Positions 6,349 through 22,178 of a stretch of 64,000 nucleotides of DNA are shown here, piece by piece (positions within the stretch are counted from its first letter, which is position 1; every line of letters begins with the position of its first letter). Both the position numbers and the translations under genes were made by a program. Source of the DNA: Methylobacter sp. (GTDB lineage: Bacteria > Pseudomonadota > Gammaproteobacteria > Methylococcales > Methylomonadaceae); the NCBI GenBank assembly GCA_030679035.1, contig JAUXTH010000189.1:124001-188000 (forward strand), written 5' to 3'. The notes under the pieces are model-generated. The model was not told where the DNA came from, searched no databases, and was given only the letters and a program-made list of their open reading frames with translations.

Positions 6349-6351
6349 TAA

Positions 6352-7947
6352 ATGGATGCATTAGTCGTTTTAATTCCCTTAATGCCATTGGTCGCGGCTT
6401 TGGCTATCGGTATTGGGCATCTGTTTGGCGTGATTAGAGGCGAAGCGGACGAAAGCTTAACGGCAGACATTGCAGGCTGGACGATTAGCATGGCCTGCCT
6501 GCTGGCTTTGACCTTGCTGGGCTCTGACCTGCTCGGCAAAAATACCGGTTCCCACAATGTAGGACATTGGCTGAGCAGCGACACGCTGGATATACAGATA
6601 AATTTCATCACCAGCGGTTTCAATGTCCGTTTGGCGGCGCTGTTTTCGGTGCTGCTGGCCATCGTCATCCGTTTTTCGATCGACTACATGCACCGGGAAG
6701 CGGGATATCACCGGTTCTTTTTTATCCTGAGCCTGTTTGCTTCGGCCATGCTGCTGCTGGTGCTATCGGGTAACGCGATCGGCACATTTATCGGCTGGGA
6801 AGTTGCAGGATTATGTTCCTATTTTTTGATCGCCTACGCTTATGATCGCCCGGTTGCCGCCGCTAATGCGACGCGCGTCTTTGTTACCAATCGTATCGGT
6901 GACGCCGGTTTTATCTTAGGCGCGGGTCTAAGCTACGCTTGGCTTGATAGCGTCAACTGGAGCAACATCAATGCTGCGGCTGCGCAAATGACGCCGGGTG
7001 AAGCAACTGCGATTGCGCTGTGTTTTGCGGTCGCCGCCTTTGCCAAATCGGCGCAACTGCCGTTCACTCCCTGGCTGGCCAGGGCAATGGAAGGGCCTAC
7101 GCCGTCGAGTGCGGTATTTTACGGTGCAGTCATGGTGCATGCCGGCGTCTATCTGCTCATCTTATTAAGGCCGGTTTTTGAACAGGCGCCATTGGCTATG
7201 TCCGTGGTCGCTATCGTGGGCTTGATGACGGCGCTTTATGCTTTTGTGGTTGGGCTAACCCAGACCGACGTTAAAAGCTCGCTGATTTTTGCGACATCCG
7301 GCCAATTGGGCCTGATGTTCCTGGAATGCGGCCTGGGTTTTTGGCAGCTGGCCGGATGGCATCTTTGCGCTCATGCGGCGGTTCGCGCCTATCAATTCCT
7401 GACTGCGCCGTCGCTGATGCATAATATGCAGGGTAATTATATAGACACCTCGCGGCGCAAAACTCCTGCTCACACCCGTCGCCTGCGTCGTGTAGGCGAC
7501 GTCCCTACCTGGGTTTATGTCGCGTCTTTGCAGCGTTTCTGGCTGGACCAGATTACCGATTGGGCGCTGGTCAAGCCGGTGCGCGGTTTGTCGCATGATC
7601 TAAGCTATTTTGACGATCATATCGTTGACCGCGTCATGGGGGCTCCTGATCCCGCAATCCGGGCAATATCGTCATTGGCGCAATGGGAAGAACAGATGAT
7701 TGGCGCGCATTTGGATAATGAATCCGATGATTTTGCCCAAGGCAGCGGTCTGGCAGGAAAACTCACCGAATGGATGGCAGCCATCCTGCACTGGTTCGAA
7801 GACCGCTTTGTCTTGCGCGGCATCGGTAAAGGCACGATTAATTATGGGCGCGAGCTTGGACATATCGCCAACAGGTTTGAACAATCGGTGTTCAGGCCCC
7901 GCTATCTGGTGTTGTTTGTGTTTATAACATTGCTTGTCGCATTTTGA
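6352..7947 (+). CDS. dabB: NuoL/DabB-like membrane subunit of DAB carbon-uptake cluster
   Basis: NuoL-type antiporter-like membrane protein (531 aa), the subunit most like DabB, which anchors DabA and supplies the ion gradient coupling. It retains the TM5 Glu (GWEVAGLCSYFLIAYAYDR) and the TM7 Lys with its partner region (FAKSAQLPFTPWLARAMEGP, TPSSAVFYGAVMVHAGVYL). The C-terminal third is soluble-looking and lacks the long lateral helix of true NuoL. At nt 7478-7512 an inverted repeat (CGTCGCCT/AGGCGACG) encodes an extra HTRRLRRVGDV segment just before the conserved VYVASLQRFWLDQ, which looks like a small in-frame insertion. The gene symbol rests on position next to dabA and NuoL type; the neighbouring NuoM-like subunits could share the function. 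Confidence 0.85.
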   Translation: MDALVVLIPLMPLVAALAIGIGHLFGVIRGEADESLTADIAGWTISMACLLALTLLGSDLLGKNTGSHNVGHWLSSDTLDIQINFITSGFNVRLAALFSVLLAIVIRFSIDYMHREAGYHRFFFILSLFASAMLLLVLSGNAIGTFIGWEVAGLCSYFLIAYAYDRPVAAANATRVFVTNRIGDAGFILGAGLSYAWLDSVNWSNINAAAAQMTPGEATAIALCFAVAAFAKSAQLPFTPWLARAMEGPTPSSAVFYGAVMVHAGVYLLILLRPVFEQAPLAMSVVAIVGLMTALYAFVVGLTQTDVKSSLIFATSGQLGLMFLECGLGFWQLAGWHLCAHAAVRAYQFLTAPSLMHNMQGNYIDTSRRKTPAHTRRLRRVGDVPTWVYVASLQRFWLDQITDWALVKPVRGLSHDLSYFDDHIVDRVMGAPDPAIRAISSLAQWEEQMIGAHLDNESDDFAQGSGLAGKLTEWMAAILHWFEDRFVLRGIGKGTINYGRELGHIANRFEQSVFRPRYLVLFVFITLLVAF

Positions 7948-7954
7948 GGCTTTG

Positions 7955-9538
7955 ATGGATATTATTGTTACTCCCTGGTCGGAATCGGCGGCCTTCCCTC
8001 TGCTCACTACGCTGATGCTGGTTCCGCTGGCGGCCATGATCGCAATCTTGTTTTCCCGCTCATCGACTGTTGCGTTGCGTTTTGGCTTTGCCGGAGCGTC
8101 GTTGACGGTATTGCTTAGCCTCTATCTGTTGGCGGTTTTCGACTCCGCCAGTCCCGGCATTCATCTGGTTGAACAGGTCAATTTCGCGGGGCTCAGTTAC
8201 CGGGTCGGCGTTGATGGAACGAATATTTTATTTATCCCGCTGACCGCCGTTTTAACCTTGCTGGCGTTAATTTATACCTTGATTACCCGGCATGTGACCG
8301 ACCGGCTGTTTATTGCCTGCCTGCTGGGTTATGAAACCGTATTGATCGGCGCTTTTACCGCGCTGAATGTGATGCAATTCTGGCTATGGTGCGTATTGGA
8401 ATTGATTCCTGTCGCGCTGCTGACGATCCATGCCGGAACCGGACAAAACCGGCGCTGGGTAGTCGCGCAATTGCTGCAATACTGGGTTAGCGGTCTGTTG
8501 ATGACGCTGGCCGGCTTTTTGTTGCTGGCCTTCGGCCTAATCGATGCCTCGCATCCGCTGACATTCGACTGGCTGACCTTGAAACAAAACAATGCCTATT
8601 TACATGATGAGGTGTTGATTTTCGTGCTGCTGTTTTTCGGCTTCGCGATCCGCATGCCGTTATTTCCATTTCACGGCTGGTTGCCGGTGTTGGCGGAACA
8701 GGGCACGGTCGCCAGCGCCGTTATTTTCCTGGTGGGTCTGAAACTGGGCATCTATGCGGTCATCCGCTTCATTTTGCCGATGGTGCCCGGCGTTGCCGAA
8801 CAATGGTCGGGGTTTGTGGTAACGCTGGGATTGATCAGCATTTTTTACGGCGCCTTGCTGGCGCTGATGCAAATCAATATTCGCCGGTTACTGGCTTTTG
8901 CGGTCATCAGCCAAACGGGCATGCTGACCATAGGCATCTTCTGTTTTAACGAGAACGGCTTGGAAGGCAGCCTGTTGCTGTCCGTGGCATACGGTTTGGC
9001 GACGGCCGGCATGCTGTTCAGCGTCGGCCTGATTTATGAGCGCTGCCGCACCGCTTATCTCCCTCGCTTGGGTGGACTGATCGATACCAACACAACATTG
9101 GCAGTCCTGTTCCTGATTTCTGCGCTGAGCACCATGGTCATGCCCGGTACGCCGGGATTTGATGCGGCGCATCTGCTCGTTGAAGGGATTATTGAGGAAG
9201 ACGGTTGGCTGCTTGCGATTGCTATTTTGCTCGGCAACGTGATGTCCGCCGCGTTCCTGTTATGGGCTTTTCAGCGGGTGTTTATGGCGACGCCTAAACG
9301 CGCCGAACAACCCTACAGCTGCTCACACCACCCGGTTTGGAAGGAGCGTTTTATTACCGCAGTGATTTGTTTGCTGCTGATTGGCACCGGCTTTTATACG
9401 ACGCCGTGGCTGAATTTTATAGACCAGGATGCGGCCGCCATCGGCAGGCAGTTCCCGATGCACGGCGCACAACAACCCGTTGGCGATAGCGAAGCTCCTG
9501 TAGGCGATGCCGTAGACAAGGATGATCAACATGATTAA
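7955..9538 (+). CDS. Divergent NuoM-like membrane subunit of DAB cluster
   Basis: Third antiporter-like subunit (527 aa from the ATG at 7955, which has GAGG 5 bases upstream; a TTG at 7934 inside the previous gene is less likely). The fold matches NuoM but the ion-path residues differ. The TM7 Lys is Arg (FAIRMPLFPFHGWLP), the TM5 WE pair reads WCVLELIP, so Glu is displaced, and the TM11 motif is GTPGFDAAHLL. This suggests that it conducts differently or is structural. The C-terminus (QQPVGDSEAPVGDAVDKDD) is encoded by a repeat with TCCTGTAGGCGA (9496-9507), possibly a late addition. It overlaps the next frame. Confidence 0.82.
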   Translation: MDIIVTPWSESAAFPLLTTLMLVPLAAMIAILFSRSSTVALRFGFAGASLTVLLSLYLLAVFDSASPGIHLVEQVNFAGLSYRVGVDGTNILFIPLTAVLTLLALIYTLITRHVTDRLFIACLLGYETVLIGAFTALNVMQFWLWCVLELIPVALLTIHAGTGQNRRWVVAQLLQYWVSGLLMTLAGFLLLAFGLIDASHPLTFDWLTLKQNNAYLHDEVLIFVLLFFGFAIRMPLFPFHGWLPVLAEQGTVASAVIFLVGLKLGIYAVIRFILPMVPGVAEQWSGFVVTLGLISIFYGALLALMQINIRRLLAFAVISQTGMLTIGIFCFNENGLEGSLLLSVAYGLATAGMLFSVGLIYERCRTAYLPRLGGLIDTNTTLAVLFLISALSTMVMPGTPGFDAAHLLVEGIIEEDGWLLAIAILLGNVMSAAFLLWAFQRVFMATPKRAEQPYSCSHHPVWKERFITAVICLLLIGTGFYTTPWLNFIDQDAAAIGRQFPMHGAQQPVGDSEAPVGDAVDKDDQHD

Positions 9539-11066
9539 TGCTGCAAGTTTTCCCGTGTTAAGCCTGCTTATTTTGTTGCCCTTATTGGGCGCGGTCATTG
9601 TAGCCGTTACCCGCAACATCCGACTGGCCAAAAACATCGCATTGTTGCTTGCTACGCTGGAATTAATTGCGACAGGGGTAGTTGTGCAGTTGTTTAATGC
9701 CGACCTTGGCAACAGCTTTCAACTGGTCGAGCGCCACGCCTGGATACCCAGCCTGAATATCGAATACCTGATTGGTGTGGATGGCATTTCAGTGTTGTTT
9801 TTGCCGATGTCTGCGCTGTTGACGTTAATGGCGATCATCGCATCATGGAATTCGGTGCAACATCTGACCCGCTTTCATTTTGCCTTATTGCTGGCGTTGG
9901 AAGGCATCACCATCGGCGTATTTTTGGCGCTGGATCTGGCGCTGTTCTTTTTGTTTTGGGAGCTGACCCTGCCGCCGATTTTCTTTTTAATCGGCTTGTG
10001 GGGCATCGGTTCGGCGCGGCGTAGCGCGGCGATCAAATACACGCTGTTCATGCTGTTTGGCGGTGTGCCGTTGCTGTTTGGGATTATCATCCTGGCGATC
10101 AACCACGCCGTTGCGGTAGACGGCAGCATTCCGCAGGATATGGCCTTCAGCCTGCCGGTATTGTTGGAAACGCCATTGCCGGATAGTTTACAGGCGCTGG
10201 TGTTTCTGTTATTGCTGTTAGGTTTCGCCGTTAAAGCGCCGTTGGTGCCGTTCCATACCTGGCTGCCCACCGTTGCCATGGAAGGCCCGACGCAAATGAC
10301 GGCCTTGTTGACCGGCCTGAAACTCGGCGCTTTCGGCATCATCCGTTTTGCGATGCCGCTGGCCCCTTCCGCCGCGGTACAATACAGCTGGGTGCTGGGC
10401 ATACTTGGCGCGATAACGCTGGTATACAGCGCGCTGATTGCGTTGCAGCAAACCAATCTACGCCGCTTGCTGGCTTATGCCAGCATCAGCCATGTCGGAC
10501 TGGTTATCGTCGGCATTGCGTCGTTGAATATGCAGGGCCTACAGGGAGCGATTTTCCAGTTGCTGAACTTCACGATGATTGCCGGTTCCCTGATGCTGGT
10601 GGCCGGTTTTATCCAGCATCGCCTAGGGAGCACCGAGGCGATCCATCTGGGCGGTCTGGCTAAAACGATGCCGCGACTGACCTGTTTTTATTTTCTATTT
10701 GCGCTGGCCAGCATAGGCCTGCCCGGAACCAGCGGCTTTCCCGCCGAATTATTGCTGATAATCAGCACCATGCTGGCGCATCCCAGCATCAGCATCGCCG
10801 CCCTGATCGGCGCGGTACTCAGCGCCGCTTATATGCTGTCCTTCAGCCGCCGAGCCTTCTTCGGCCCAGTCACCCAAGCCAGTGTCAAACAAATGCAGGA
10901 TTTACGTCCACGGGAACTGACGCTGTTGTGCGTGTCGGCGTTATTGATATTGGGATTCGGCTTTTTCCCGAATAATGTGCTGAAAGTCAATCGAGCAACG
11001 GCAGAGGCATGGTTAAGTCGGATAATGGATCAGCCGGTATTGGCAAGTAAGGCTGAGCAGGATTAG
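9531..11066 (+). CDS. NuoM-like proton-translocating membrane subunit of DAB cluster
   Basis: Fourth antiporter-like subunit (511 aa). The ATG at 9531 is preferred to the in-frame ATG at 9522 because AAGGA (9518-9522) is 8 bases before it. The canonical residues are intact: LFWELTLPPIFFLIGLWG (TM5 Glu), FAVKAPLVPFHTWLPTVAME (TM7 Lys) and GLPGTSGFPAELLLI (TM11). Its start overlaps the end of the preceding gene by 8 bp, so translation is probably coupled. It is the last gene of the carbon-uptake operon; the TA island begins 85 bp downstream. Confidence 0.85.
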   Translation: MINAASFPVLSLLILLPLLGAVIVAVTRNIRLAKNIALLLATLELIATGVVVQLFNADLGNSFQLVERHAWIPSLNIEYLIGVDGISVLFLPMSALLTLMAIIASWNSVQHLTRFHFALLLALEGITIGVFLALDLALFFLFWELTLPPIFFLIGLWGIGSARRSAAIKYTLFMLFGGVPLLFGIIILAINHAVAVDGSIPQDMAFSLPVLLETPLPDSLQALVFLLLLLGFAVKAPLVPFHTWLPTVAMEGPTQMTALLTGLKLGAFGIIRFAMPLAPSAAVQYSWVLGILGAITLVYSALIALQQTNLRRLLAYASISHVGLVIVGIASLNMQGLQGAIFQLLNFTMIAGSLMLVAGFIQHRLGSTEAIHLGGLAKTMPRLTCFYFLFALASIGLPGTSGFPAELLLIISTMLAHPSISIAALIGAVLSAAYMLSFSRRAFFGPVTQASVKQMQDLRPRELTLLCVSALLILGFGFFPNNVLKVNRATAEAWLSRIMDQPVLASKAEQD

Positions 11067-11082
11067 AAGACGGGTAGTATTG

Positions 11083-11116
11083 TGTGTTGACATTTTTAAC
11101 ACATTTAGCAGATACT
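11083..11116 (+). promoter_or_regulatory. Candidate sigma-70 promoter with palindromic operator for tacAT
   Basis: TTGACA at 11087-11092 and GATACT at 11111-11116 with an 18-bp spacer form a plausible -35/-10 pair. A palindrome TGTGTT-N9-AACACA (11083-11103) overlaps the -35. This is the expected layout for autorepression by a ribbon-helix-helix antitoxin such as TacA. Confidence 0.5.
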
Positions 11117-11151
11117 TTTAACATGGAATTAGTTAATTGGCATTAAAGGCT

Positions 11152-11442
11152 ATGAGAACAGAACACACCCCCGCAGAAGTAAACATTCACTTGCGCGCGA
11201 AAGCACATGATAGGTTGCTTATTGACCAAGCAGCAGAGTTGCTTGGTTCAAATCGTTCGCAATTTATGATGGCCTCAGCACTCAAGGAAGCCAAGAATGT
11301 AATCCTTGACCAAACCTCTATTTATGTAGACAACAAGACATTTCAAAACGTATTGGAGTGGCTAGATACACCGGCAACGCAAGAACAGATTGACGGGATG
11401 AACCGATTGCGGACAATAAAATCCCCTTGGTCGGATGAGTGA
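11152..11442 (+). CDS. tacA: DUF1778 antitoxin, TacA type
   Basis: Antitoxin of a type II TacAT module: an N-terminal ribbon-helix-helix DNA-binding region (VNIHLRAKAHDRLLIDQAAE, SNRSQFMMASALKEA) and a C-terminal toxin-neutralising tail ending in WLDTP and WSDE. The ATG at 11152 fits the family N-terminus, although an in-frame TTG at 11137 (GGA upstream) is possible. The stop overlaps the toxin start (GTGA), the usual coupled arrangement. Probably autoregulated through the palindrome just upstream. Confidence 0.85.
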   Translation: MRTEHTPAEVNIHLRAKAHDRLLIDQAAELLGSNRSQFMMASALKEAKNVILDQTSIYVDNKTFQNVLEWLDTPATQEQIDGMNRLRTIKSPWSDE

Positions 11443-11948
11443 AAAATAAGGAAGTTTGTTCGCCTGTTCATTTAACCGAACAGCATGATACAGAGGGCTT
11501 CCGCTCGGGCGAGGAAACGCTGGATACTTGGTTGCGTAAGCGGGCGTTCGCCAATATGGAAGCATCGGCAAGTAGAACCTATGTTATTTGTCCTTCCAGT
11601 TCGAATAAAGTTATTGGGTATTACGCTATTTGCATGGGACAGATTTTTAGCCAAGAAGTTATTGGTTCCATGCGCCGGAATATGCCCCGCCAGATTCCAG
11701 CGGTAATACTTGGACGCTTAGCCATTGATCAGAAATGGCAAGACCAAGGATTAGGCAAAGCATTACTTCAAGATGCAGTGCAAAGGTCAGCCCGTGCGGC
11801 TAAAGAAGTATCCGCCCGTCTTTTGATTGCACATGCCATTTCTCCGGAAGCGGAAGCCTTCTATTTGCATTACGGTTTTACCCGCCTTCCAACCGAAACG
11901 CCAACCTACGCCCTAGACCTTATTAAGTTTGCCAAGCTTTCAGAATAA
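11439..11948 (+). CDS. tacT: GNAT acetyltransferase toxin, TacT type
   Basis: 169-aa GCN5-related N-acetyltransferase of the TacT toxin family, which acetylates aminoacyl-tRNAs to block translation. The acetyl-CoA loop is RLAIDQKWQDQGLGKALL and the C-terminal AEAFYLHYGFTRLP contains the conserved Tyr. The GTG start at 11439 overlaps the antitoxin stop by 4 bp. Family assignment is firm; the substrate is inferred from relatives. Confidence 0.85.
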   Translation: MKNKEVCSPVHLTEQHDTEGFRSGEETLDTWLRKRAFANMEASASRTYVICPSSSNKVIGYYAICMGQIFSQEVIGSMRRNMPRQIPAVILGRLAIDQKWQDQGLGKALLQDAVQRSARAAKEVSARLLIAHAISPEAEAFYLHYGFTRLPTETPTYALDLIKFAKLSE

Positions 11949-12011
11949 TATCCGTCAGTTTGGATAGACTGATCCCCTACACGCAAAGCATCTATCTGGC
12001 TTGAAATCCGG

Positions 12012-12299
12012 TTATGTACGACTTGACCAGTAGCCCGGTTTTCTACTGTTATGCATCACTGCAACGACATAAATTGACTGGTCAATTTTCCGATAAATCA
12101 CAGAAAATGGAAACCTGGAAAGTAAAAACCTTCGAAAACCTTTTTCGAAAAAAGGCCATGTTCGCGGGAATTCAACAATCGCTTGATAAGCCGATTCGAG
12201 TTCATTCAGAAAGTCATCCCCTAAACCTTCAGCCTGATCTTGGTACCAAGCATACGAAGCCTTTATTTCAGAAGAAACGCCGGGGTGAAATCTTAACAA
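12012..12299 (-). CDS. RelE/ParE family toxin
   Basis: 95-aa toxin of the ParE/RelE superfamily: EIKASYAWYQDQAEGLGDDF, a central PFFEKGFRRFLLSRFPFSVIYRK and the terminal VVAVMHNSRKPGYW block, typical of the ParE branch paired with CHP02574 antitoxins. It starts at a TTG 5 bp after the antitoxin stop. The target (gyrase or ribosome) cannot be decided from sequence alone. Confidence 0.85.
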   Translation of the reverse strand: MLRFHPGVSSEIKASYAWYQDQAEGLGDDFLNELESAYQAIVEFPRTWPFFEKGFRRFLLSRFPFSVIYRKIDQSIYVVAVMHNSRKPGYWSSRT

Positions 12300-12304
12300 T
12301 TTTG

Positions 12305-12520
12305 CTAACTTTTAACCGCTTTCTTTATATCGTCCCAAGATACAGACTCAACCTGACCGGAAGCAAGCTCTTGATACCTCTGATCGGCTAGTTCCGCCCA
12401 TGCCTGCTCAACGCCTTCATCTTGCCTAGTTTCAAGCGAAGAAATTAAACAATGAGCAACTTGGGCTCTCTCATTAACAGTCAATTGTTTTGCATTTTCT
12501 ATAACTTGATTAATGTTCAT
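12305..12520 (-). CDS. Addiction-module antitoxin, CHP02574 family
   Basis: 71-aa antitoxin (MNINQVIENAKQLTVNERAQ ... AWAELADQRYQELASG) of the family found upstream of ParE-like toxins. The frame is open to 12586, but the ATG at 12520 gives the normal family N-terminus. It lies 5 bp upstream of the toxin on the same strand. Confidence 0.8.
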   Translation of the reverse strand: MNINQVIENAKQLTVNERAQVAHCLISSLETRQDEGVEQAWAELADQRYQELASGQVESVSWDDIKKAVKS

Positions 12521-12649
12521 AACCGATTTATCCGTTAATTTGCATTTTTGGATTCTAGCATGGCGGTCGAAAAGCACATAACCCATGATTATTATGACAG
12601 ATGGACCGCACTATGTTTGGCCCATCCTATCTTTCACGGTCTCTTGGAA

Positions 12650-12934
12650 TTACGCAACCTCACGCGCCGCCTCTTCAATAACGCTATCAGGTACGCCAAG
12701 CTTTTTTAGCGCCGCAATCAACTTGGCTTCCTTACTCAATGCAAACTGCGCTTCGTCACGGCGCAAGCATTCACTAATGTACGACTTTAATAAAGCCTGA
12801 TAGCCGGAAAAGCCTTTGCAGGGCGCTATAACCTTCATGGATTCCACCACATCGACCGGAATGCGCAGAGTGATTGAAGTCATGGAGCGGTCTTTAGTTA
12901 AGCGGTTTTTAACTGTGTCAGAAATCATAATCAT
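12650..12934 (-). CDS. brnA: BrnA-type antitoxin
   Basis: 94-aa protein with a CopG/BrnA-like ribbon-helix-helix region (TSITLRIPVDVVESMKVIAP, YQALLKSYISECL). It follows and overlaps the BrnT toxin gene by 17 bp, the toxin-first order typical of BrnTA. An internal ATG (MTSITLRI) could be the start; the overlap with brnT favours the upstream one. Type II antitoxin by context and fold. Confidence 0.75.
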   Translation of the reverse strand: MIMISDTVKNRLTKDRSMTSITLRIPVDVVESMKVIAPCKGFSGYQALLKSYISECLRRDEAQFALSKEAKLIAALKKLGVPDSVIEEAAREVA

Positions 12935-13214
12935 TGCGCTCCGTTAGCGTGGCCTTGCGAGCCGAAATAAGCCGGATAAACTCACCTTCAACCTCAATAT
13001 GCACAACAAACAGCAACCGGCCTTTTTCATCATAGCCGATAACCGCGTCACGCGATTCATGATGGCGGCCTGCATCAACCAGTTTTAAAAACGGGTCGAA
13101 GAAAGCTTCGGCAGCTTGGTCGAAAGTAATTCCGTCATGTTTGATCGGGTTCGCCGCAGCTTTGCGGGCATTCCAAGCAAAGCTGACGCCGTTTTTTTCG
13201 TAGTGAATATCCAT
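12918..13214 (-). CDS. brnT: BrnT family toxin (DUF497)
   Basis: 98-aa RelE-fold RNase toxin. Family features are FAWNARKAAANPIKHDGITF, EAFFDPF, RDAVIGYDEKGRLLFVVHIE and the terminal IRLISARKATLTERNDYDF. It is complete and precedes brnA in an overlapping operon. BrnT in other species cleaves RNA and is neutralised and autorepressed with BrnA. Confidence 0.87.
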   Translation of the reverse strand: MDIHYEKNGVSFAWNARKAAANPIKHDGITFDQAAEAFFDPFLKLVDAGRHHESRDAVIGYDEKGRLLFVVHIEVEGEFIRLISARKATLTERNDYDF

Positions 13215-13407
13215 ATAACTAAGACTAATGTAATGTATTGGCTTTGTAAATACAAATAGTGGATAGTTTGCTTGATTTATCGAATTATGGGGATGTTGAG
13301 ATCAACCAAGCCCAGACAATAGCTCTTCGTTATCTGACGTTTTGGTATTCCGAGATGGGCCGGAATGGGCAAGTTCAGAAGACATAGCTCTATTGAAGCT
13401 TGGAAAT

Positions 13408-13474
13408 GTCAGGCATAAAAAGCATGCCTGACCTACAGGACTGATTCGCCGCAAAAACTTCTTGCGGCGAATCA
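13408..13474. repeat. Two adjacent inverted repeats in a 510-bp gene-free gap
   Basis: GTCAGGCAT (13408-13416) pairs with ATGCCTGAC (13424-13432), and TGATTCGCCGCAA (13442-13454) pairs with TTGCGGCGAATCA (13462-13474). Both are strong hairpins between brnT and the helicase operon. The rest of 13215-13724 holds no convincing gene; it becomes AT-rich toward 13650 and probably contains the promoter of the downstream operon. Confidence 0.7.
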
Positions 13475-13724
13475 TGTTCTTTAGTTCTAAAAGCCGCAGT
13501 TGGAAAATGTGGAAACCTTACGTGCTGTCGAAACATGAGCATTTTTCACAGTCCCCCCATTCTGCACGGCAGAACAATAATTGCACATCAACAGCTTGTC
13601 GGGATATATTAAGAAACGTCATAAGCCGGTCAATGGTAAAGTGGTCAAGCCCCATTCAGGCCTTGCAGCATAATATTTTTACTAAATCAAATCTGACTTA
13701 ATTTTATCTGAACCTTTATCGCAT

Positions 13725-15296
13725 ATGATTACCGACTTCAAAAAGATTGATTCTCTTTCGCCATCGGACTTTGAAGTTTTCGTCCGCGATGTGTTTGTTG
13801 CCGCTGGCTGGAGTGATGCCATCATTACCAAAGTCGGACAAGAATTTCAGCACGGTGACGGTGGTGTTGATATTTTTGCTTATAAAAATAAGCGCAAATT
13901 TGCTATCGAAGTTAAACAAAGAGCAGCAGGAACAACAGTTGATGTTAAAGCCTTAAATCAGTTAGTCACAGGCGCGAAACTTGCCAATGTCGCTAACATG
14001 ATTTTGGTAACAAATTCTTATTTCACCTCAGAAGTAAAAGTTCGAGCTTTAAGGCTTGGTGTTGAACTAACTGATCGTGATGGTTTGCAGAACTTATGGT
14101 TCCAAAAGCATTCTGAAATTGGACGCGAAATTAAACCTAGGAAATATCAAGAAACCGTTATCCAAGACAGCTTGATACGTTTTAACGAAGGCAACAGTCG
14201 TTTGCTGATTGAAATGGCGACAGGCTTAGGAAAAACTTATACCGTTGCCCATTTGCTTAAACAGATATTGCAACAAGGCAAAGTTAAGCGTGTGCTGTTT
14301 TTAGCGCATCAAGTTGAAATATTAATGCAATCTGTAACCGCATTTAAAAACGTGTTTGGCATTGGTGCTTATTCATTTTCCGCTTGTTTTGGTGGTGCAG
14401 ACCCAGAGGATACCGACTTTGTCTTCGGCAGTTTCGACACACTATTTAGCAAAATAACCACGCTGGAAAAAGAAACTTTTGACATAGTAATTGTCGATGA
14501 AGCCCATCACACGCCTGCCATAACTTACGCCACTGTCGTCGAACATTTTCATCCTAAATTACTGATAGGCCTTACCGCGACGCCGTTTCGTGAGGACAAT
14601 AAAGATGTGTTGGCATTCTTTGGCGGTTCAGCAGGCCATGTGGGTAAATATGATTTAGCCTGGGCGTTACGTCATAACAAACTGGCATTTCCGAAATATT
14701 TAGTCTTGCTGGATGACTTGGATCAATCGCGTATAGACCAACTTGATAGTGGTATGTCGATTAGCGACTTAGACCAGCGGCTTTTTTTGCATAAAAAAGA
14801 CGAGGAAGTTGTTCGTATCATTGAGAAAACGGTACAAGACAAACAAATCCCTAACCTTAAAGGCATTGTTTTTTGCCGTAGCATTACGCACATAAATTAC
14901 CTCATTCAGTTTTTCCCCGGAGGTAGTGCCACTTTTGTCCATTCAAAAATGACTGATCAACAACGCTGGCAAAATATTCGTGATTTTCGTGAAGGCAATT
15001 ATCGTTACATTTTAGTGCGCGATTTGTTTAATGAAGGCGTGGATATTCCAGAAACTAATCTACTGGTTTTTATGCGTTATACGGGATCGCATACGGTGTG
15101 GTTGCAACAATTAGGTAGAGGCTTGCGCAAAACACCGAATAAAGATTATGTTCATGTATTGGATTTTGTCGGCTCATTAGAACGCTTAAACGAAGTCCAT
15201 CAACTTACTAAAAGAATAAATAGCATTCCCATTGACAAAGATAATTGGGAATCCCACCACGTGATAAAAAAGAAACCTTACATAATTCATCGTTAG
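13725..15296 (+). CDS. Mrr-type nuclease fused to SF2 DEAH helicase (zero frame)
   Basis: 523-aa zero-frame product. The N-terminus (residues about 10-125) is a restriction-endonuclease-like Mrr domain with a PD-(D/E)xK core: GDGGVDI (D49) and AIEVKQ (E62, K64). It is followed by an SF2 helicase: Walker A ATGLGKT (165-171), DEAH (258-261), LTATP (283-287) and the motif VI region QQLGRGLRK (461-469). The frame ends in a foreign-looking tail (HHVIKKKPYIIHR) right after a slippery A_AAA_AAG at 15266-15272. The missing C-terminal part lies in the -1 frame, giving a 744-aa fusion if the ribosome slips there. The DNA is clearly more AT-rich than its neighbours and TA modules flank it. A restriction or anti-phage role is inferred. 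Confidence 0.85.
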   Translation: MITDFKKIDSLSPSDFEVFVRDVFVAAGWSDAIITKVGQEFQHGDGGVDIFAYKNKRKFAIEVKQRAAGTTVDVKALNQLVTGAKLANVANMILVTNSYFTSEVKVRALRLGVELTDRDGLQNLWFQKHSEIGREIKPRKYQETVIQDSLIRFNEGNSRLLIEMATGLGKTYTVAHLLKQILQQGKVKRVLFLAHQVEILMQSVTAFKNVFGIGAYSFSACFGGADPEDTDFVFGSFDTLFSKITTLEKETFDIVIVDEAHHTPAITYATVVEHFHPKLLIGLTATPFREDNKDVLAFFGGSAGHVGKYDLAWALRHNKLAFPKYLVLLDDLDQSRIDQLDSGMSISDLDQRLFLHKKDEEVVRIIEKTVQDKQIPNLKGIVFCRSITHINYLIQFFPGGSATFVHSKMTDQQRWQNIRDFREGNYRYILVRDLFNEGVDIPETNLLVFMRYTGSHTVWLQQLGRGLRKTPNKDYVHVLDFVGSLERLNEVHQLTKRINSIPIDKDNWESHHVIKKKPYIIHR

Positions 15297-15958
15297 AAGT
15301 GAACTATAGCCAGTCCGCCGCGCAAGTTTTACAGCTAATAGAAGAGCTACAGTATCGCCTAAAATCACGAATGCAAGCTATTGAAGTATTACGAAGATAT
15401 TATGATGATTACAATAAAGTCCCTACGCTGAATGAAATAGAAAGCGTTTTGACTGACATTACCGTTGACCAAATCGCCACACACTTTGATTCGTATTTTG
15501 GTTATTTGGAAGCGGCATTAACGGGACAATACGACCAAAGTCTATTTCGTACCCTGTGCTTAGATTATGCACAGCATTTTTATCAACAAAACCACATCTG
15601 CCCAACCTTTAGAGCCATCAGCCTAGCTAATCAATATAACGGCTTACTCGCATGTTCTGAGCTAGAAGTTAAGTTTTTACTAGCTAATGAAAGTGAATTG
15701 GAAAATTATTTGTTAGGGACAAATAAACCGCTTAGACTTAATAATCAAGTTGTTACTGAGAACATTGAAACAGAATTGCCTCTTGGTGAGACAACAACCA
15801 TCGAAACAAATCATGAATATTTACTCATTGATAAATATTTAACCACTATAAAAACACGGCAAGATTTATTAAAACTTTCTGCCGAAGATAGAGCAGAGAT
15901 TAAAAAAGTATTTAACTCAGAATTCCGCTTTTTCAGTTGCTTACAAAATAAAAAATAA
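15245..15958 (+). CDS. C-terminal part of the Mrr-helicase in the -1 frame
   Basis: Open frame of 237 codons that overlaps the end of the helicase by 52 bp. From the slip site the -1 reading gives KKETLHNSSLEVNYSQSAAQVLQLIEELQYRLK and onward, which reads as the natural continuation of the helicase rather than as a separate protein. No ribosome binding site precedes the nominal ATG at 15245. The region is helical, with no recognised catalytic motif, and is probably an accessory domain. Either a programmed -1 shift or a one-base change in the A6 run explains the split. Confidence 0.65.
   Translation: MGIPPRDKKETLHNSSLEVNYSQSAAQVLQLIEELQYRLKSRMQAIEVLRRYYDDYNKVPTLNEIESVLTDITVDQIATHFDSYFGYLEAALTGQYDQSLFRTLCLDYAQHFYQQNHICPTFRAISLANQYNGLLACSELEVKFLLANESELENYLLGTNKPLRLNNQVVTENIETELPLGETTTIETNHEYLLIDKYLTTIKTRQDLLKLSAEDRAEIKKVFNSEFRFFSCLQNKK
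15266..15272 (+). other. A_AAA_AAG slippery heptamer, candidate -1 frameshift site
   Basis: The heptamer lies in the correct phase of the helicase frame (ATA AAA AAG). A -1 slip continues with GAA at 15272 in the downstream open frame. It is the same heptamer used by E. coli dnaX. GGGA about 15 bases upstream could act as a weak internal Shine-Dalgarno stimulator; no strong downstream hairpin is obvious. Confidence 0.5.
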
Positions 15959-15972
15959 TTAAGGATAGCTCT

Positions 15973-18093
15973 ATGGATGAAGTTGAAGATATTTTTATGT
16001 CACCCGATAATAACTACGATTTTGTAACCCCAATAGATCAGCTTGCTTTATCGCCAAAATATCAAAAACTCATCAAAAGAATTTTCGTCGTAATGGATAA
16101 TATACATACGATTAAAGATATTATTGATATTGATATTACCGTTTTTTCGAAATTACCCTATATAGGTAAATCGTATGTTGACTCGTTGATAAGCTTACAG
16201 CATGCTATAAAACATACAGATATTAATCAATGCAATAGTGATATTGAAGAAATAGAATTAACACCGCAAATAACGCTTTCAATCACACAGTTAGAAACGC
16301 CATTAAATCAGCTTGCCTTATCGACCCAATATCAAAGACTCATAAAAAGAATTTCAACAGCGATAGGCAATGCAAATACTGTACAAGACATTATTGATAT
16401 TGACCCTATCCATTTTTCAAGATTACCCGCTGTAGGCAAATTGTATGTTAATCAATTAATTGAGTTCAAGAAACAATTGCCTGGTTTTTTAGAAAAACAA
16501 ACGCAAAAATTAGCTTTTTTTAAAGAAAATTACTCAATTGAGTTTAATGAAATAGATAACACCTTAATAGAAGATGTCGAAGGCTATTTATGGTCATTGA
16601 ATGACATGAAAATGGATATTGCTCTTTCGCGTTGGGGATTTAATCATCAACATGAGTCGCTTGAGGAAGTCGGAAATCGCTATAAGGTGACAAGGGAACG
16701 AATACGCCAACTTGAAAAACCTATCAATACTAATTTGCCGTTGCATTTGACAATACAATCCAAAGTTTTATGGGCAAATATCCGTGAAAAAATGACCGAA
16801 GATTTAACGGAATTGCTACCCAATTTAGCCAAATGCTTTGCAACAGATAAATTATTCTACGCATTTATCGAAATATTATGCCAAGTTAAAAGTGGCAGTA
16901 TTCGTAAAATAATTTTTACCGAAATTAATACTAAAATTATTAACTCGCTGTTTTGTATTAATCCATCACCTATTCCCCAAGAAATAATCATCAATGAATT
17001 AATGTCGAATTATGGTTACAGTAAAGCGTCGGCAATTAATGGCATTAAACAACTAGAGAAACTCGGTAAAATAGAAAGAACCGAACAAGGTGTGAATCCT
17101 AAAAAACTTGGCAGAGCTGAAGCTGTGGCTCATAGCTTAACCCGTCACCCAGCAGGATTACCTTGGAAAGATATTGCTAGGATTGTGAATAGAAATGGCT
17201 ATTCATCAAAACAAATGGATGAAACAAGATCAACTCATGGTTTTAATGATTCCGAATATATTTATTTATGCGCTAAAGGGACATTCAGAAATTTAATGTT
17301 TCTCGACTTTGAGCAATTTGATATTCCTAAAATCATGCAACATTTACTTGATTATTTTAAGCAGCATCAATTAACAGCATTGCATTTACACGATTATTTT
17401 TATCAAACTAAAGATCAGCGCTGTGAAATAGAATATTTCACCTTACGTCATCTTGTCAGAGAGTATGGCGAAGAATATGGGCTTTATTTTAATGGCAAAT
17501 CAAATGTAGATGGCGTAAGTCTTGACCAAGATTTGAAATCTATTACCCAAGTCGATGTCATTATAAAGGTGCTTAATGAATCAAAAGTTGCCATGACTAA
17601 ACAAGAAATAGCAGAGCGACTAAGAAGTAAAAGCACGGGGCATGCTGGATTTATCTTAAATAATCTAATGGAAGAGGGCAAGGTAGTACGCGTTGATCAA
17701 ATGGTTTATACTACTCCTGAGAAAGCATTTTTCAATATGGACACCAAAGCCATTATGCAGATTATTCAAGATATTATGAGCACCTCAAATATTATCGTTG
17801 AAGCCGATGTTTTTCGTGAATATGTCAATATGGAGCTGAACTTAAGTTATTCAAAATATATTTACATGGCATTAGTCAAAATCCAGTTAAAAGAATTAGC
17901 CTGGTATCGCAATAACATGTTATTTAGTAAAAAGCCCATTCCATATAAAAATTTAATGGATATGTGTAAGCAACTGTGTAATTCAGAGCTGCCTAAAAAT
18001 GAAAATGCTAAAATTATTAAAAAGGCTGTATGGCTAACTGATGCCGTGGCGACGGAGGCAATTCATCAATGGAAATGGCAAATGAGCCATTAG
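15973..18093 (+). CDS. Sigma-region-4-like HTH protein with duplicated N-terminal domain, unknown function
   Basis: 706-aa protein that I cannot assign to a named family. Residues about 20-78 and 110-168 are a tandem duplication (QLALSPKYQKLIKRI ... IIDIDITVFSKLPYIGKSYV and QLALSTQYQRLIKRI ... IIDIDPIHFSRLPAVGKLYV); the LPxxGKxYV part looks like a helix-hairpin-helix. Residues about 215-250 (SLEEVGNRYKVTRERIRQLE) match the helix-turn-helix of sigma-70 region 4. The long C-terminal part contains several winged-helix-like stretches (IIINELMSNYGYSKASAING, TKQEIAERLRSKSTGHAGFI). It starts 14 bp after the helicase, is equally AT-rich and must be co-transcribed. A DNA-binding or regulatory partner of the helicase is inferred. 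Confidence 0.8.
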   Translation: MDEVEDIFMSPDNNYDFVTPIDQLALSPKYQKLIKRIFVVMDNIHTIKDIIDIDITVFSKLPYIGKSYVDSLISLQHAIKHTDINQCNSDIEEIELTPQITLSITQLETPLNQLALSTQYQRLIKRISTAIGNANTVQDIIDIDPIHFSRLPAVGKLYVNQLIEFKKQLPGFLEKQTQKLAFFKENYSIEFNEIDNTLIEDVEGYLWSLNDMKMDIALSRWGFNHQHESLEEVGNRYKVTRERIRQLEKPINTNLPLHLTIQSKVLWANIREKMTEDLTELLPNLAKCFATDKLFYAFIEILCQVKSGSIRKIIFTEINTKIINSLFCINPSPIPQEIIINELMSNYGYSKASAINGIKQLEKLGKIERTEQGVNPKKLGRAEAVAHSLTRHPAGLPWKDIARIVNRNGYSSKQMDETRSTHGFNDSEYIYLCAKGTFRNLMFLDFEQFDIPKIMQHLLDYFKQHQLTALHLHDYFYQTKDQRCEIEYFTLRHLVREYGEEYGLYFNGKSNVDGVSLDQDLKSITQVDVIIKVLNESKVAMTKQEIAERLRSKSTGHAGFILNNLMEEGKVVRVDQMVYTTPEKAFFNMDTKAIMQIIQDIMSTSNIIVEADVFREYVNMELNLSYSKYIYMALVKIQLKELAWYRNNMLFSKKPIPYKNLMDMCKQLCNSELPKNENAKIIKKAVWLTDAVATEAIHQWKWQMSH

Positions 18094-18193
18094 CTCGGTA
18101 GTGCAACGGAATAAGTGTGGACGGATAACTCGGGAACTTCGCTACGAGTATCTTTTCAGCTTTTAAAGGCCTATTAAGCTAGAGTGAAAACCG

Positions 18194-18397
18194 GTGTTTC
18201 CGTTGCTATGTAAACTGGTGAAATTACATAGCGCGGCGACTTTGGCGTTTTTGCAAAGTCCGCCCGGCAATCGGTTTGAAGCATTGAAAGGCGACCGTGC
18301 GGGGCAATACAGCATTCGCATCAACGACCAATGGCGTGTCTGTTTCCGCTGGGCGGACGGCGATGCTTTTGATGTTGAGATTGTCGATTACCATTGA
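18194..18397 (+). CDS. higB: HigB/RelE family toxin, possibly N-terminally truncated
   Basis: 67 aa starting at GTG. The C-terminal two thirds of a HigB toxin are intact (PPGNRFEALKGDRAGQYSIR, NDQWRVCFRW, VEIVDYH), but relatives are about 92 aa with a further N-terminal segment. Upstream, another frame reads VSVAM just before the KLVKLHS block, as if a 2-base loss had broken ATG-CGT-AAA. So the toxin may be a decayed or shortened form. It ends directly before higA in toxin-first order. Confidence 0.7.
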   Translation: MFPLLCKLVKLHSAATLAFLQSPPGNRFEALKGDRAGQYSIRINDQWRVCFRWADGDAFDVEIVDYH

Positions 18398-18408
18398 GGA
18401 GAAAAAAC

Positions 18409-18711
18409 ATGATACATAACGGTATGCGCCCCATTCACCCTGGCGAAATTTTGCGTGAAGACTACTTGATTCCGCTTGGCCTGAGCGTAAACGCATTGGC
18501 TAATGCCCTGCACGTTCCTGCTACTCGCCTGCACGAAATTGTCAAAGAACGCCGTTCCATTACGCCTGATACTGCACTGCGCTTGGCGCGTTATTTCGGC
18601 GGCGACGCTCAATCCTGGCTTAGTTTGCAAACCGCTTACGATTTGCGCGTGGCTGAGCAACAAGCCTTGTCCGCTATTGAGAAAGAAGTTTTGCCGCGCG
18701 AGGCGGCTTAA
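18409..18711 (+). CDS. higA: HigA family antitoxin
   Basis: 100-aa HTH_XRE antitoxin: MRPIHPGEILREDYLIPLGL followed by the HTH (VNALANALHVPATRLHEIVK, ERRSITPDTALRLARYFGG). The ATG at 18409 has GAGGAG (18396-18401) at good spacing; an in-frame TTG at 18394 overlaps the higB stop and is less likely. In the family it represses the operon and neutralises HigB. Confidence 0.9.
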   Translation: MIHNGMRPIHPGEILREDYLIPLGLSVNALANALHVPATRLHEIVKERRSITPDTALRLARYFGGDAQSWLSLQTAYDLRVAEQQALSAIEKEVLPREAA

Positions 18712-18724
18712 GCTTTTCGGTCAC

Positions 18725-18854
18725 CAACTTAAAACGGGGCAGCCTAAGGCTTAACCGTTCGCCCTGAGCTTGTCGAAGGGTGTACGGTAAGCCGATCATG
18801 GTTCGACAAGCTCACCACGAACGGCTTAACCTTAGGCTGCCCCGGCTTAAGTTG
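18725..18854. repeat. 130-bp imperfect inverted repeat between convergent genes
   Basis: Arms 18725-18761 and 18818-18854 are near-perfect inverted copies. The loop contains the CCGTTCGCCCTGAGCTTGTC-type dispersed repeat in two orientations. Located between higA and purK, which converge, so it may also end transcription from both sides. Confidence 0.85.
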
Positions 18855-18884
18855 TAGCCAGCTTTTCTAACCGCTAAGCAGGTA

Positions 18885-19979
18885 TTACGAATCATCAACC
18901 TGATCGGCCAACGCGGTCAATTTCTTAACTAGCTCTGACATTTGCTGCTGACTCTCCGCCCGCACCGTGGCATGAGCCACTTTGCGGCCTTTGCGCGGGG
19001 CTTTGTCGTAAAGATGCAAATGCGCATGGGGAATTGCCAATAGTTCTTCAGTCTTAGGCAGTCCGCCGATGAAGTTGACCATGGCCGCGTTGCCTACCGG
19101 CGCTGTCGAGCCTAGCGGCAAGTCCAAAATCGCCCGCAGGTGATTTTCAAACTGGCTGGTTTCCGCGCCTTCTATCGTCCAGTGGCCGGAGTTATGCACT
19201 CTTGGCGCGAACTCGTTGACAAGCAGCTGGCCGTCTATTTCGAATAATTCCAAGGCCAGCACGCCGACATAATCCAGCGCTTCCAGCAGGCGGGAGACAT
19301 AGCTTTCGGCCTGTTGTTGCATCGGGTCGTCGGCGCGGCATTCGGAAACGCGCAGTATGCCGCCGCGATGCAGGTTTTCCGATAACGGGTAGAAAACAAT
19401 CGCCCCGGAAACACTGCGCACGGCGATGATGGATACTTCGCGGTTAAACGGGACGAAGGCTTCTACGACTGCCGGTACGCCTTGCAACAGTTTCCAAGCG
19501 CCTGTTAAATCGTCCGCCGATTTGAGCAGGGACTGGCCTTTGCCGTCGTAGCCTTGGGTGCGGCTTTTCAAAATAGCGGGGTAGCCGATGGTGGTCATCG
19601 CCTGCTCAAGACTTTCAAGGCTATCTACCGCTGCATAATTTGGCGTAGGGATGCCGATGTCATGGAAAAAGCTTTTTTCAACCAATCGATCCTGGGCAAC
19701 GGCCAGTGCCTTCGGGGAGGGATGCACTTGGGTGTGTGAAGCCAGAAACTCTGCGACTTCAGACGGCACATTTTCGAACTCATAAGTGACTACATCGGCG
19801 CGTTCGGCCAGTTGCGCCAGCAATTTCGGATCGTTGTAGTCGCCGATTAAAGGTTCGCCCAGCCTGTTGGCGCAGGCATCTGCTGAGGGGTCGAGAAAGA
19901 TAAACTCCAGGCCTAAAGGTATGCCCGCCAACGCTATCATTCTGGCAAGCTGGCCTGCGCCCAATACCCCAACAATCAT
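18885..19979 (-). CDS. purK: 5-(carboxyamino)imidazole ribonucleotide synthase
   Basis: ATP-grasp enzyme (364 aa, normal length) that carboxylates AIR to N5-CAIR in purine synthesis. It begins with [20 protein letters not shown], has the ATP-grasp core [18 protein letters not shown], and the VALELFEI-type and [18 protein letters not shown] active-site blocks. The ATG overlaps the purE stop by 4 bp, so the two are translated together. Confidence 0.96.
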
Positions 19980-20476
19980 AAATCGTCCTCTATTCTTGGA
20001 TCTGAGTTTGCAAGCACCGACTCGGTTTGCTCACGTCTGAAATCATTTAATGCGTCCTTATACTGGACATGTTTGTTGCTGATGATGGCCGCTGCCAGCA
20101 AAGCCGCGTTGATCGCGCCCGCTTTGCCTATCGCCAAGGTGCCGACCGGAATTCCGGCGGGCATTTGCACGATGGACAGCAGGGAGTCCATGCCGTTTAG
20201 CGCTTTGGACTGCACCGGTACGCCCAGCACAGGCACGGCGGTTTTCGCCGCCGTCATGCCTGGCAAATGCGCCGCGCCGCCTGCTCCGGCGATGATCACT
20301 TCCAGACCCTTGCTTTCCGCCGTTTCGGCATAGTCGAACAGTTTGTCCGGGGTGCGGTGCGCCGAGACCACTTCAACCTCGTGCGGGATGCCGAGTTGCG
20401 TCAGTGTTTCCGCTGCAAAGCGCATGGTCTCCCAGTCGGACGTCGAGCCCATGATGATGCCAACCAGTGCGGTCAT
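19976..20476 (-). CDS. purE: 5-(carboxyamino)imidazole ribonucleotide mutase
   Basis: 166-aa class I PurE that converts N5-CAIR to CAIR. Key signatures are [24 protein letters not shown] and the [12 protein letters not shown] loop followed by [14 protein letters not shown] lies 6-7 bases before the ATG. First gene of purEK. Confidence 0.97.
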
Positions 20477-20584
20477 GTGTTACTCCTAATTAAGCAGGTA
20501 ATCATAAATGTCTAATAGTTATCACGAAGGGTGCATAGTTCAAAAAAATCAAAGCCGCGTAGTATCGCATAAATGCTGGAGCGT

Positions 20585-20792
20585 TCATCTTTATACACAA
20601 GTATTTTAAGATACGTCATTCCGGCAGGGATTGCCGGAATCCAGGGCACAGGGATGTGAATGCTTGATTTAACTAAGCGGCACCTCTTTTGCAAGACTTA
20701 TCGTTTGCTTCGGCATTGCCATCCATGGCTTCTGGATCCCGGCAATCCCTGCCGGGACGACGCGCTTAATAAGCACTTGTGTATAAAGATGA
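20585..20792. repeat. 208-bp compound inverted repeat upstream of purE
   Basis: Outer arms 20585-20602 and 20775-20792 (TCATCTTTATACACAAGT and complement) enclose inner arms with GGCAGGGATTGCCGGAATCC (20622-20642) and its counterpart around 20730-20757. The 379-bp gap 20477-20855 holds this element and nothing else recognisable; rmuC ends at its far side. Confidence 0.8.
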
Positions 20793-20855
20793 GCACAAGT
20801 TTTTACGTTGAGTTTCTTCATGAAAATATGTTTTAAGTTAATGCCTGTCGAATTT

Positions 20856-22178
20856 CTAACTTTCATCGCTTTCAAGCCCGGCCTGTTCGGTGATGCTTTT
20901 AGGAAAGGTCTTTTTGACTTTAACGCCCAGATCGACAAAGCTGCTGGCTTGGCGGATCAGATTGCCGCTACCTTGGGTTAATTTATTCATCACGCCGTCA
21001 TAAGTGCTGTTGACGGTGCTGAGCTGCTTGCCCAGTTTATCCAGGTCATCGACAAAGCCCCGGATTTTGTCGTAAACCAGCCCCGCTTTATCGGCGATAG
21101 CTCGGGCATTTTCGTTCTGGCGTTCATAGCGCCAGATGTTTTCGATGGTGCGCAATGTGGCTAATAATGTCGTCGGGGTGACCACGATAATCTTATGCTC
21201 GAAGGCATCGGTAAATAAACGCTCATCAGCCTGAAAAGCGGCGATGAAGGCGGACTCAATCGGCATGAATAACAGTACGAAATCCAGCGATCTGATGCCT
21301 TTTAAACCGGAGTAATCCTTGTTGCTCAAGCCCTTGATGTGCTCCCGCACTGCTTCGGTATGCTGCTTTAAGGCCAGCACCCGTTCCTGGTCGTCTTCGG
21401 TTGAGCAATAGCGTTCATAAGCCAGCAACGACACTTTGGAATCGATCACCACATCCTTGTCTTCGGGTAGGCGGACGATTACATCAGGCTTGAACAGCCG
21501 GTTGTCCTCGTCCCGGAATGCGCCCTGGGTTTCGTACTCGATGCCTTTGCGCAGCCCAGATTTTTCCAGCACCGTTTCCAGGATCATTTCACCCCAGTTG
21601 CCTTGGGTTTTCTTGTCGCCTTTTAACGCGCGGGTCAGGTTCAGCGCTTCCTGGTTCATTTGTGCGGTATCGCGGCGCAACGAGACGATTTCCTCGCGCA
21701 AGGAAACTCGATCCTTGTTTTCGTTGTCGTAAACCGTCTCTATGCGCTGCTTGAACTCGCCGAGCTGTTCCCTCAGTGGCGTGACGATATGATCCAGGCT
21801 GGTTTTATGGTGTTCGGTAAATTGCTTGCTGCGGTCGTCAAAAATCTTGCCGGCCAGATTTTCAAACTGGGTGTTCAGCCGCACTTCCGCATCCAGCAGC
21901 AGCTTTAATTTTTCCTCGGTATTTTTGGCCTGCTCATCCATGCGGGCTTGCAACTCGGCATTCTCGGTTTTGGTCTCGATAAACAGCTGCTGCAACTGCT
22001 TGAATTCGGCTTCGCGGCTTTGTAATTGTTTTAGCTTTTCTTCAGAAACCGCAAGATCGGTCGAGAGTTGCCGGATCAGGGTTTTATCCTTGCCGTTCAA
22101 TAAACGCATCGCAAATGCGCCGACCAGGAAACCGATTAAGGCCCAGACCAGCGGAGGAATGGTATTGATAAAATTCAT
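20856..22178 (-). CDS. rmuC: DNA recombination protein RmuC
   Basis: 440 aa: an N-terminal membrane anchor (PLVWALIGFLVGAFAMRLL), a coiled coil (about residues 40-110), then the RmuC nuclease-like domain with NWGEMILETVLEKSGLRKG, KPDVIVRLPEDKDVVIDSKV and FVLLFMPIESAFIAAF. RmuC limits inversions at short inverted repeats in E. coli, which is notable in a genome so rich in palindromes. The stop overlaps the start region of the upstream nucleotidyltransferase by 4 bp. Confidence 0.94.
   Translation of the reverse strand: MNFINTIPPLVWALIGFLVGAFAMRLLNGKDKTLIRQLSTDLAVSEEKLKQLQSREAEFKQLQQLFIETKTENAELQARMDEQAKNTEEKLKLLLDAEVRLNTQFENLAGKIFDDRSKQFTEHHKTSLDHIVTPLREQLGEFKQRIETVYDNENKDRVSLREEIVSLRRDTAQMNQEALNLTRALKGDKKTQGNWGEMILETVLEKSGLRKGIEYETQGAFRDEDNRLFKPDVIVRLPEDKDVVIDSKVSLLAYERYCSTEDDQERVLALKQHTEAVREHIKGLSNKDYSGLKGIRSLDFVLLFMPIESAFIAAFQADERLFTDAFEHKIIVVTPTTLLATLRTIENIWRYERQNENARAIADKAGLVYDKIRGFVDDLDKLGKQLSTVNSTYDGVMNKLTQGSGNLIRQASSFVDLGVKVKKTFPKSITEQAGLESDES

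Follow-up and report, generated by a model that had tools for sequence, protein, structure and literature searches.

We analysed a 64,000-nucleotide (nt) stretch of Methylobacter sp. DNA (contig JAUXTH010000189.1, positions 124,001 to 188,000; hereafter the window) that contains two adjacent genes, one encoding an Mrr nuclease fused to a superfamily 2 (SF2) helicase (gene 1) and the other a large sigma-like protein (gene 2). An earlier note on this DNA had proposed them as an undescribed defence operon. The two genes recur side by side in distinct bacteria, and the second protein evolves faster than the motor and nuclease of the first. Their features in the window are as follows (aa, amino acids; ORF, open reading frame; HhH, helix-hairpin-helix).

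13725..15296, + strand: first part of gene 1 (523 aa), with an Mrr_cat PD-(D/E)xK nuclease domain (aa 8–124) and an SF2 ResIII/DEAH helicase (aa 136–468), by Pfam
15245..15958, + strand: C-terminal third of gene 1, shifted to −1 with respect to the first part; a single frame in the 10 relatives compared
15266..15272, + strand: A_AAA_AAG heptamer in the zero frame of the first ORF, within its ~50-nt overlap with the −1 frame; candidate slippage site
15973..18093, + strand: gene 2 (706 aa), a sigma-like, HhH and probable winged-helix DNA-binding protein
16021..16179, + strand: first HhH repeat (alpha-CTD-like), a 159-nt direct repeat
16291..16449, + strand: second HhH repeat, its DNA 74% identical to the first over 159 nt
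16564..16731, + strand: primary-sigma-type region 4 (about aa 198–253), with VTRERIRQ identical to the host RpoD-like protein

The nuclease and helicase that the earlier note had read in gene 1 are both present. The first ORF matched the Pfam models Mrr_cat (2.4e-17), ResIII (5.4e-35) and Helicase_C (1.4e-14), and nuclease and helicase motifs are kept in all 11 gene 1 sequences. The solved structure closest to the helicase is 7clg_A (6.9e-42), with RadD second (4.0e-24), and the best PADLOC (2.0.0) models for gene 1 are those of mREase_IV (4.8e-54). Plasmid-borne helicases of 557–565 aa were left out of the counts: they form a separate group, ~30% identical, with other partners. They belong to a different recurrent plasmid cassette of an ATP-binding protein, this DEAD/DEAH helicase and a 175–202-aa protein, found in Pseudosulfitobacter, Ruegeria, Deinococcus and Rhodococcus (L048–L051; handles in L and G are our own for loci and genomes) and lying near a cytosine methylase in three of the four.

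The two-gene operon described in the earlier note stood as far as its ORFs at 13725–15296 (523 aa) and 15973–18093 (706 aa) are concerned, but the third ORF between them had been overlooked, and gene 1, taken there to be intact, has a frame break near 15250, within a linker that is variable among relatives. Both gene 1 parts lie in one frame in 10 out of 10 relatives (L003, L004, L007, L031, L032, L033, L035, L036, L037, L038). A one-base frame change thus splits the helicase of the window; it could be a genuine mutation or a mistake in the assembly. As gene 1 is split, the window copy of the cassette is probably weakened or dead. The A_AAA_AAG heptamer may be a putative rescue that lets some ribosomes through; no stable stem stands out downstream of it (z −0.24). 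Programmed frameshifting as a trait of the family was ruled out, as all 10 compared relatives are single-frame.

Gene 2 starts 14 nt after the C-terminal part of gene 1. Its duplicated N-terminal domain and sigma-region-4 helix-turn-helix (HTH), both named in the earlier note, were borne out. The duplication has 31 of 62 residues identical between the two HhH repeats. The window and L040 have two such repeats, nine others have three (nine of the 12 relatives) and one was recognised in E. coli; for L034 only part of the sequence was read. The E-values from the hidden Markov model of the repeat are not independent ones, because the model was scored on its own training sequences. The Pfam alpha-CTD model missed the repeats in a search of the window's own genome (E <= 10), and the label 'alpha-CTD-like' is based on a match to PglW and on background knowledge. 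Region 4 matched Sigma70_r4 (9.3e-6, above its cut-off), and a profile of eight gene 2 relatives placed primary sigma factors at the top of a search against PDB (SigA1, 1.9e-8), with both halves of region 4 covered. RER(I/V)RQ is kept in 12 of 13 gene 2 sequences, L033 being the exception, and the VTRERIRQ stretch is the same in the host's own RpoD-like protein (L094). The region 4 helix with this motif is presumably the reader of the −35 element. Unlike a sigma-70 factor, which also has region 2 for binding the core and the −10 element, gene 2 gave no region 2 match in a Pfam scan, and thus it is not a sigma factor. The long C-terminal part is scarcely recognised by Pfam (weak HTH, HARE-HTH and AbiEi-type matches); gene 2 probably has several winged helices. 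The HARE-HTH-like match (0.016, below cut-off, in L033 only) is a hint only; the reading of modified bases has been attributed to this domain (PMC10853773).

Gene 2 is the next gene after gene 1, on the same strand, in 13 distinct loci. Eleven of them belong to genomes of the window's order (the window itself, G000; G950, G956, G985, G092, G063, G193, G150, G186, G166 and G052), and the others to one Nitrosomonas bin (L035) and Escherichia coli (L046). Both genes are whole in eight of these; the other pairs are damaged or incomplete, namely those of the window, of G186, where gene 1 has an insertion, of G166 and G985, which lie at contig ends, and of G956, whose gene 2 is cut off close to the end of its contig. 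In eight of nine measured loci the genes overlap by up to 8 nt or stand up to 18 nt apart; in L064 the distance is 90 nt. For L040 and L042 the precise start is uncertain. The gene 1 helicase was found in 11 of 237 genomes of the window's family (E <= 1e-150); one of these loci, G1049, ends within gene 1. The earlier note had staked its proposal on linkage elsewhere, and this was found: gene 2 follows the helicase in all 10 family loci with a visible neighbour, and the genes are also paired in G052, which belongs to another family of the same order, in the Nitrosomonas bin and in two E. coli records. A second Nitrosomonas bin from the genome contig search (L034) is cut at a contig end. At the order level, the gene 2 search matched 64 of 201 genomes, nine of them, G052 and G130 included, strongly (E < 1e-70) and G191 distantly; the remaining 54 matches were confined to the sigma region 4 stretch, were taken as ordinary sigma factors and were not counted. 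In wider samples the family appears to be rare: only the window's own genome matched among 369 class-level (E <= 1e-20) and 398 phylum-level genomes (E <= 1e-10). As for a phage or viral origin, a tblastn search of gene 2 against phages found nothing, and one scan of viral contigs found no relative.

In G130 (L044), what reads as a type I restriction-like set separates remnants of gene 1 and gene 2. About 3.8 kb with transposase-like genes interrupts gene 1 in Methylobacter luteus (L033, 2876–8929), and its gene 2 has a sigma recognition helix that departs from the family pattern. L043 (7029–10891) encodes a 989-aa distant gene 2 relative (20% identity); a 298-aa gene comes next, and what read as a replication-initiator-like gene and insertion sequence (IS) elements lie nearby.

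Of 5426 E. coli genomes, 83 have gene 2 and 105 have gene 1 DNA. Cover is at least 80% in 73 of the former and 82 of the latter, and lower in the remaining 23 with gene 1 DNA. The pair adjoins ydeT in both chromosomes inspected. Identity to the window proteins is 72% for gene 1 (residues 1–502) and 31% for gene 2. Traces of loss were seen in nine of 60 E. coli rows among the matches listed, which keep only the first 35–102 bases of gene 1. The laboratory strain E. coli C (L120, NZ_CP020543, 7359–11378) has a gene 1 interrupted by ISSen4 and only the first 210 residues of gene 2 (98% identical), beside an ISEc52 remnant. Three conjugative plasmids, one typed IncHI1A, carry gene 2 without gene 1. 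As all three retain the last 58 bases of gene 1, these are decayed pairs, and gene 2 as an independent plasmid orphan was ruled out.

We compared evolutionary rates in nine loci (36 pairs for the parts of gene 1; eight loci and 28 pairs for gene 2, with 21 pairs for its last part). The proportion of synonymous differences (pS) was similar in all parts (0.60–0.69). The ratio of nonsynonymous to synonymous proportions (pN/pS) was 0.073 in the helicase, 0.090 in the Mrr domain and 0.267 in the helicase C-terminus, against 0.24–0.35 in gene 2 outside the HhH array and 0.55 within it, a value possibly inflated by misaligned repeats. Fast change in one protein beside a conserved motor and nuclease is the pattern that would be expected of a recognition or sensor subunit. 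For the pair L036–L038, pS was low in gene 1 only (0.29 versus 0.55), a hint of exchange between copies.

The surroundings of the pair support a defence setting. Seven of the 13 paired loci (G166, G186, G193, G150, G092, G052 and E. coli) have it near genes for proteins resembling Septu, Thoeris TIR, DruA, SauUSI, McrB or DUF4365-nuclease proteins. A PADLOC scan of 20 neighbouring proteins identified PtuA (4e-158) and PtuB (6e-96) in L036, ThsB (1.6e-46) in L033, DruA (1.9e-60) immediately before gene 1 in L041, mREase_IV (1.7e-110) in L040 and a partial mREase_IV in L031. Weaker matches were AriA/PtuA-like and PtuB-like proteins in L031, a DUF4365 nuclease (2.1e-21) in E. coli and, in L038, a protein that by reading is a McrB-like AAA protein and that PADLOC gave as REase_II (1.5e-12); four of the 20 had no PADLOC match. 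The window itself agrees with the earlier note, which had pointed to low GC content, toxin-antitoxin (TA) neighbours and a defence-type insertion at purK. GC is 0.32–0.43 across 13001–18000 versus 0.51–0.57 in the adjoining 8001–11000 and 18001–22000, and also falls to 0.41 elsewhere in the window. The TA-flanked gene pair lies in a GC-poor stretch between a complex-I-type gene (ending at 11066) and purK (from 18885). In 10900–19000, all Rfam families stayed below their gathering scores. The flanking genes are:

9522..11066, + strand: left border, complex-I antiporter-type (Nuo) gene, named from reading of the sequence only
11137..11948, + strand: TacA-like antitoxin and GNAT protein, a flanking TA module (Pfam)
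12012..12586, − strand: ParE-type toxin and antitoxin (Pfam)
12650..13214, − strand: BrnT toxin and CopG-type antitoxin (Pfam)
18194..18711, + strand: HigB-like toxin and HTH antitoxin, downstream (Pfam)
18885..19979, − strand: right border, purK, named from the earlier note and reading of the sequence

We found purK in 21 of 23 genomes of the window's genus and examined 14 purK stretches. The complex-I-type gene lies on the same stretch in six, at gaps of ~0.18, 0.33, 1.0, 4.8, 5.8 and 6.4 kb; it was not seen in the other eight, several of which have housekeeping genes beside purK. The cargo at this site includes a HerA protein (4.5e-144, G136), a SIR2-NACHT protein (G115), a 1662-aa SIR2-type protein adjoining purK (G054) and three ORFs without a Pfam match (G160). 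Three purK-site stretches share TacA-, BrnT- or HigA-type TA genes with the window, by reading, and the site is nearly empty in two genomes of the genus. As gap sizes and cargo differ among these stretches, the interval from the Nuo-type gene to purK (11067–18884 in the window; L106–L109, L111 and L112) is a variable site that is often defence-rich. The neighbours and this hotspot support the setting claimed in the earlier note; defence activity itself we infer.

The earlier note could match gene 2 to no named system. No PADLOC or NCBIfam (20.0) model covers gene 2 or the pair, with only partial, sub-domain matches for gene 2, and a literature search, with preprints and subscription journals largely outside its reach, found no description of the pair. 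We regard it as probably an unnamed helicase–nuclease restriction-type system with a new recognition partner. SauUSI, a type IV, methyl-directed enzyme without a cognate methylase, resembles gene 1 in its SF2 translocase core (7clg, 6.9e-42) and N-terminal nuclease; no methylase was seen within the cassette on reading its ORF lists and annotations. 7CLG is a structure code named in the SauUSI paper (PMC7913695). That paper describes a single chain with a PLD nuclease and, at its C-terminus, an SRA target domain that turns on ATPase-driven movement and cleavage (PMC7913695). Zorya ZorD shares an Mrr-like domain and an SNF2/SF2 helicase with gene 1, but the match (3.3e-10) covers the Mrr part only, the domain order differs, and no ZorA or ZorB match was found among the pair and the 20 neighbours scanned. 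The HhH region of gene 2 matches the alpha-CTD-like part of PglW of type 2 BREX (1.0e-5), a protein with an alpha-CTD-like domain and three winged HTHs (PMC12839542). However, the pair has no kinase or NERD nuclease match, and no other BREX gene was seen. Similarly, MzaA of the MZA system resembles region 4 of gene 2 (6.4e-8), but the match is limited to aa 194–248 and its 31.9 bits fall far below the cut-off of 800, and full-length MzaA was not matched. Unlike type I restriction-modification, no HsdM or HsdS was seen in the cassette by reading, the type I-like set of L044 being a separate, interrupting one.

We give about an even chance to the reading that the two genes form a mobile defence cassette with type-IV-like, methylase-free restriction and a recognition subunit acting in trans. 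The analysis itself shows which domains the proteins have, that the genes are linked and mobile, that defence genes lie nearby and that the two proteins evolve at different rates; the complex, its DNA target, cleavage and protection from phages are what we propose. Gene 2 would be this subunit, with its HhH array, sigma region 4 and probable winged helices binding a feature of incoming DNA. In complex with gene 1 it would, by analogy with SauUSI, load gene 1 onto the target DNA, along which the SF2 helicase would travel with ATP while the N-terminal Mrr nuclease cuts, and the cell would be protected from phages. Such a system would be a SauUSI-like enzyme whose target-recognition domain has moved into a separate, fast-evolving protein. 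As the cassette has no methylase, self DNA must be spared by the absence of the recognised feature; this lack of a methylase, together with the Mrr-type nuclease, favours a modification- or structure-dependent target. If true, this is an unnamed restriction-like defence system that joins a conserved helicase–nuclease to a fast-changing recognition protein with a primary-sigma-like module. It occurs in E. coli as well as in methane oxidisers and an ammonia oxidiser, which makes it testable with standard phage collections. It would also make it a testable question whether bacterial defence reads promoters or the state of the polymerase.

Several observations weigh against this reading. The PLD (HKD) nuclease of SauUSI is absent, gene 1 having Mrr_cat (Pfam) in its place, and its SRA/DUF3427 target domain was not matched, recognition being proposed to reside in the second protein. 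Most winged helices of gene 2 come from weak matches and secondary structure only; neither protein gave an AlphaFold model good enough to judge folds from (mean pLDDT 61 and 40), and a Foldseek search with the first gave no match at E <= 0.001. Protein distances of the two genes are not significantly correlated in the methanotroph and Nitrosomonas set (r 0.23, p 0.09, eight loci); with E. coli added, r is 0.92 (p 0.009). The gene 2 relative of L043 has no helicase within the 19.9 kb examined. The 20 scanned neighbours were hand-picked, without a random control. By reading, no non-TA defence gene was seen in six of the 13 paired loci (the window, G950, G956, G985, G063 and L035), of which only the window's TA genes were scanned (Pfam) and L035 has little flank.

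A helicase and nuclease without a methylase could also watch DNA structure or damage and, once triggered, degrade DNA indiscriminately in abortive infection. The two-gene principle is that of Hachiman HamAB, described in the abstract of its paper as a sensor helicase with an effector nuclease, and HhH and winged helices are generally able to bind structured DNA. However, neither gene matched HamA, HamB similarity is marginal (for the E. coli protein, E 0.003), helicase and nuclease are fused in one protein, and the large, fast-evolving partner is not known to have a Hachiman counterpart. We consider such integrity sensing unlikely.

A more speculative version of the recognition idea, which we hold to be a long shot, is that gene 2 mimics the promoter-reading parts of the housekeeping RNA polymerase. 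Sigma region 4 with its unchanged −35 helix and the alpha-CTD-like repeats would be the mimicry, and the system would police transcription by loading the helicase–nuclease at a promoter or polymerase. A phage that takes over or stops host transcription would leave promoter DNA or polymerase open, and this could be the trigger; so could strong promoters on naked incoming DNA. The system would then be a restriction system that guards promoters or polymerase.

The same primary-sigma-like region 4 (SigA1 in PDB, VTRERIRQ shared with the host) could instead make gene 2 a sigma-like activator of neighbouring defence genes, with the helicase as bystander or co-effector. The start of PtuA overlaps the end of gene 2 in L036. 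However, region 2 was not matched, the ORF lists read show no downstream gene that recurs throughout, and the constant partner is the helicase; a role as transcriptional regulator is very improbable. Equally poor are the prospects of a DNA repair or plasmid-maintenance module spread by mobile elements: among solved structures, RadD and XPB come next in similarity to the helicase, the L043 homologue (20% identity) lies near a replication-initiator-like gene and IS elements by reading, and three conjugative plasmids (one IncHI1A) carry gene 2, but presence is sporadic (83 of 5426 E. coli genomes), the genus hotspot is shared with HerA and SIR2-type genes, the partner evolves fast and several E. 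coli strains show decay.

In the L036 locus (6731–13659), the genes for the helicase, the sigma-like protein, PtuA and PtuB follow one another, the start of each overlapping the end of the one before; the pair and Septu may form a joint operon here. By reading, repeated large copies of one core-type gene (3–2075, 5286–6656 and 13702–15282) border its defence modules, as if this island had grown by duplication of its target gene.

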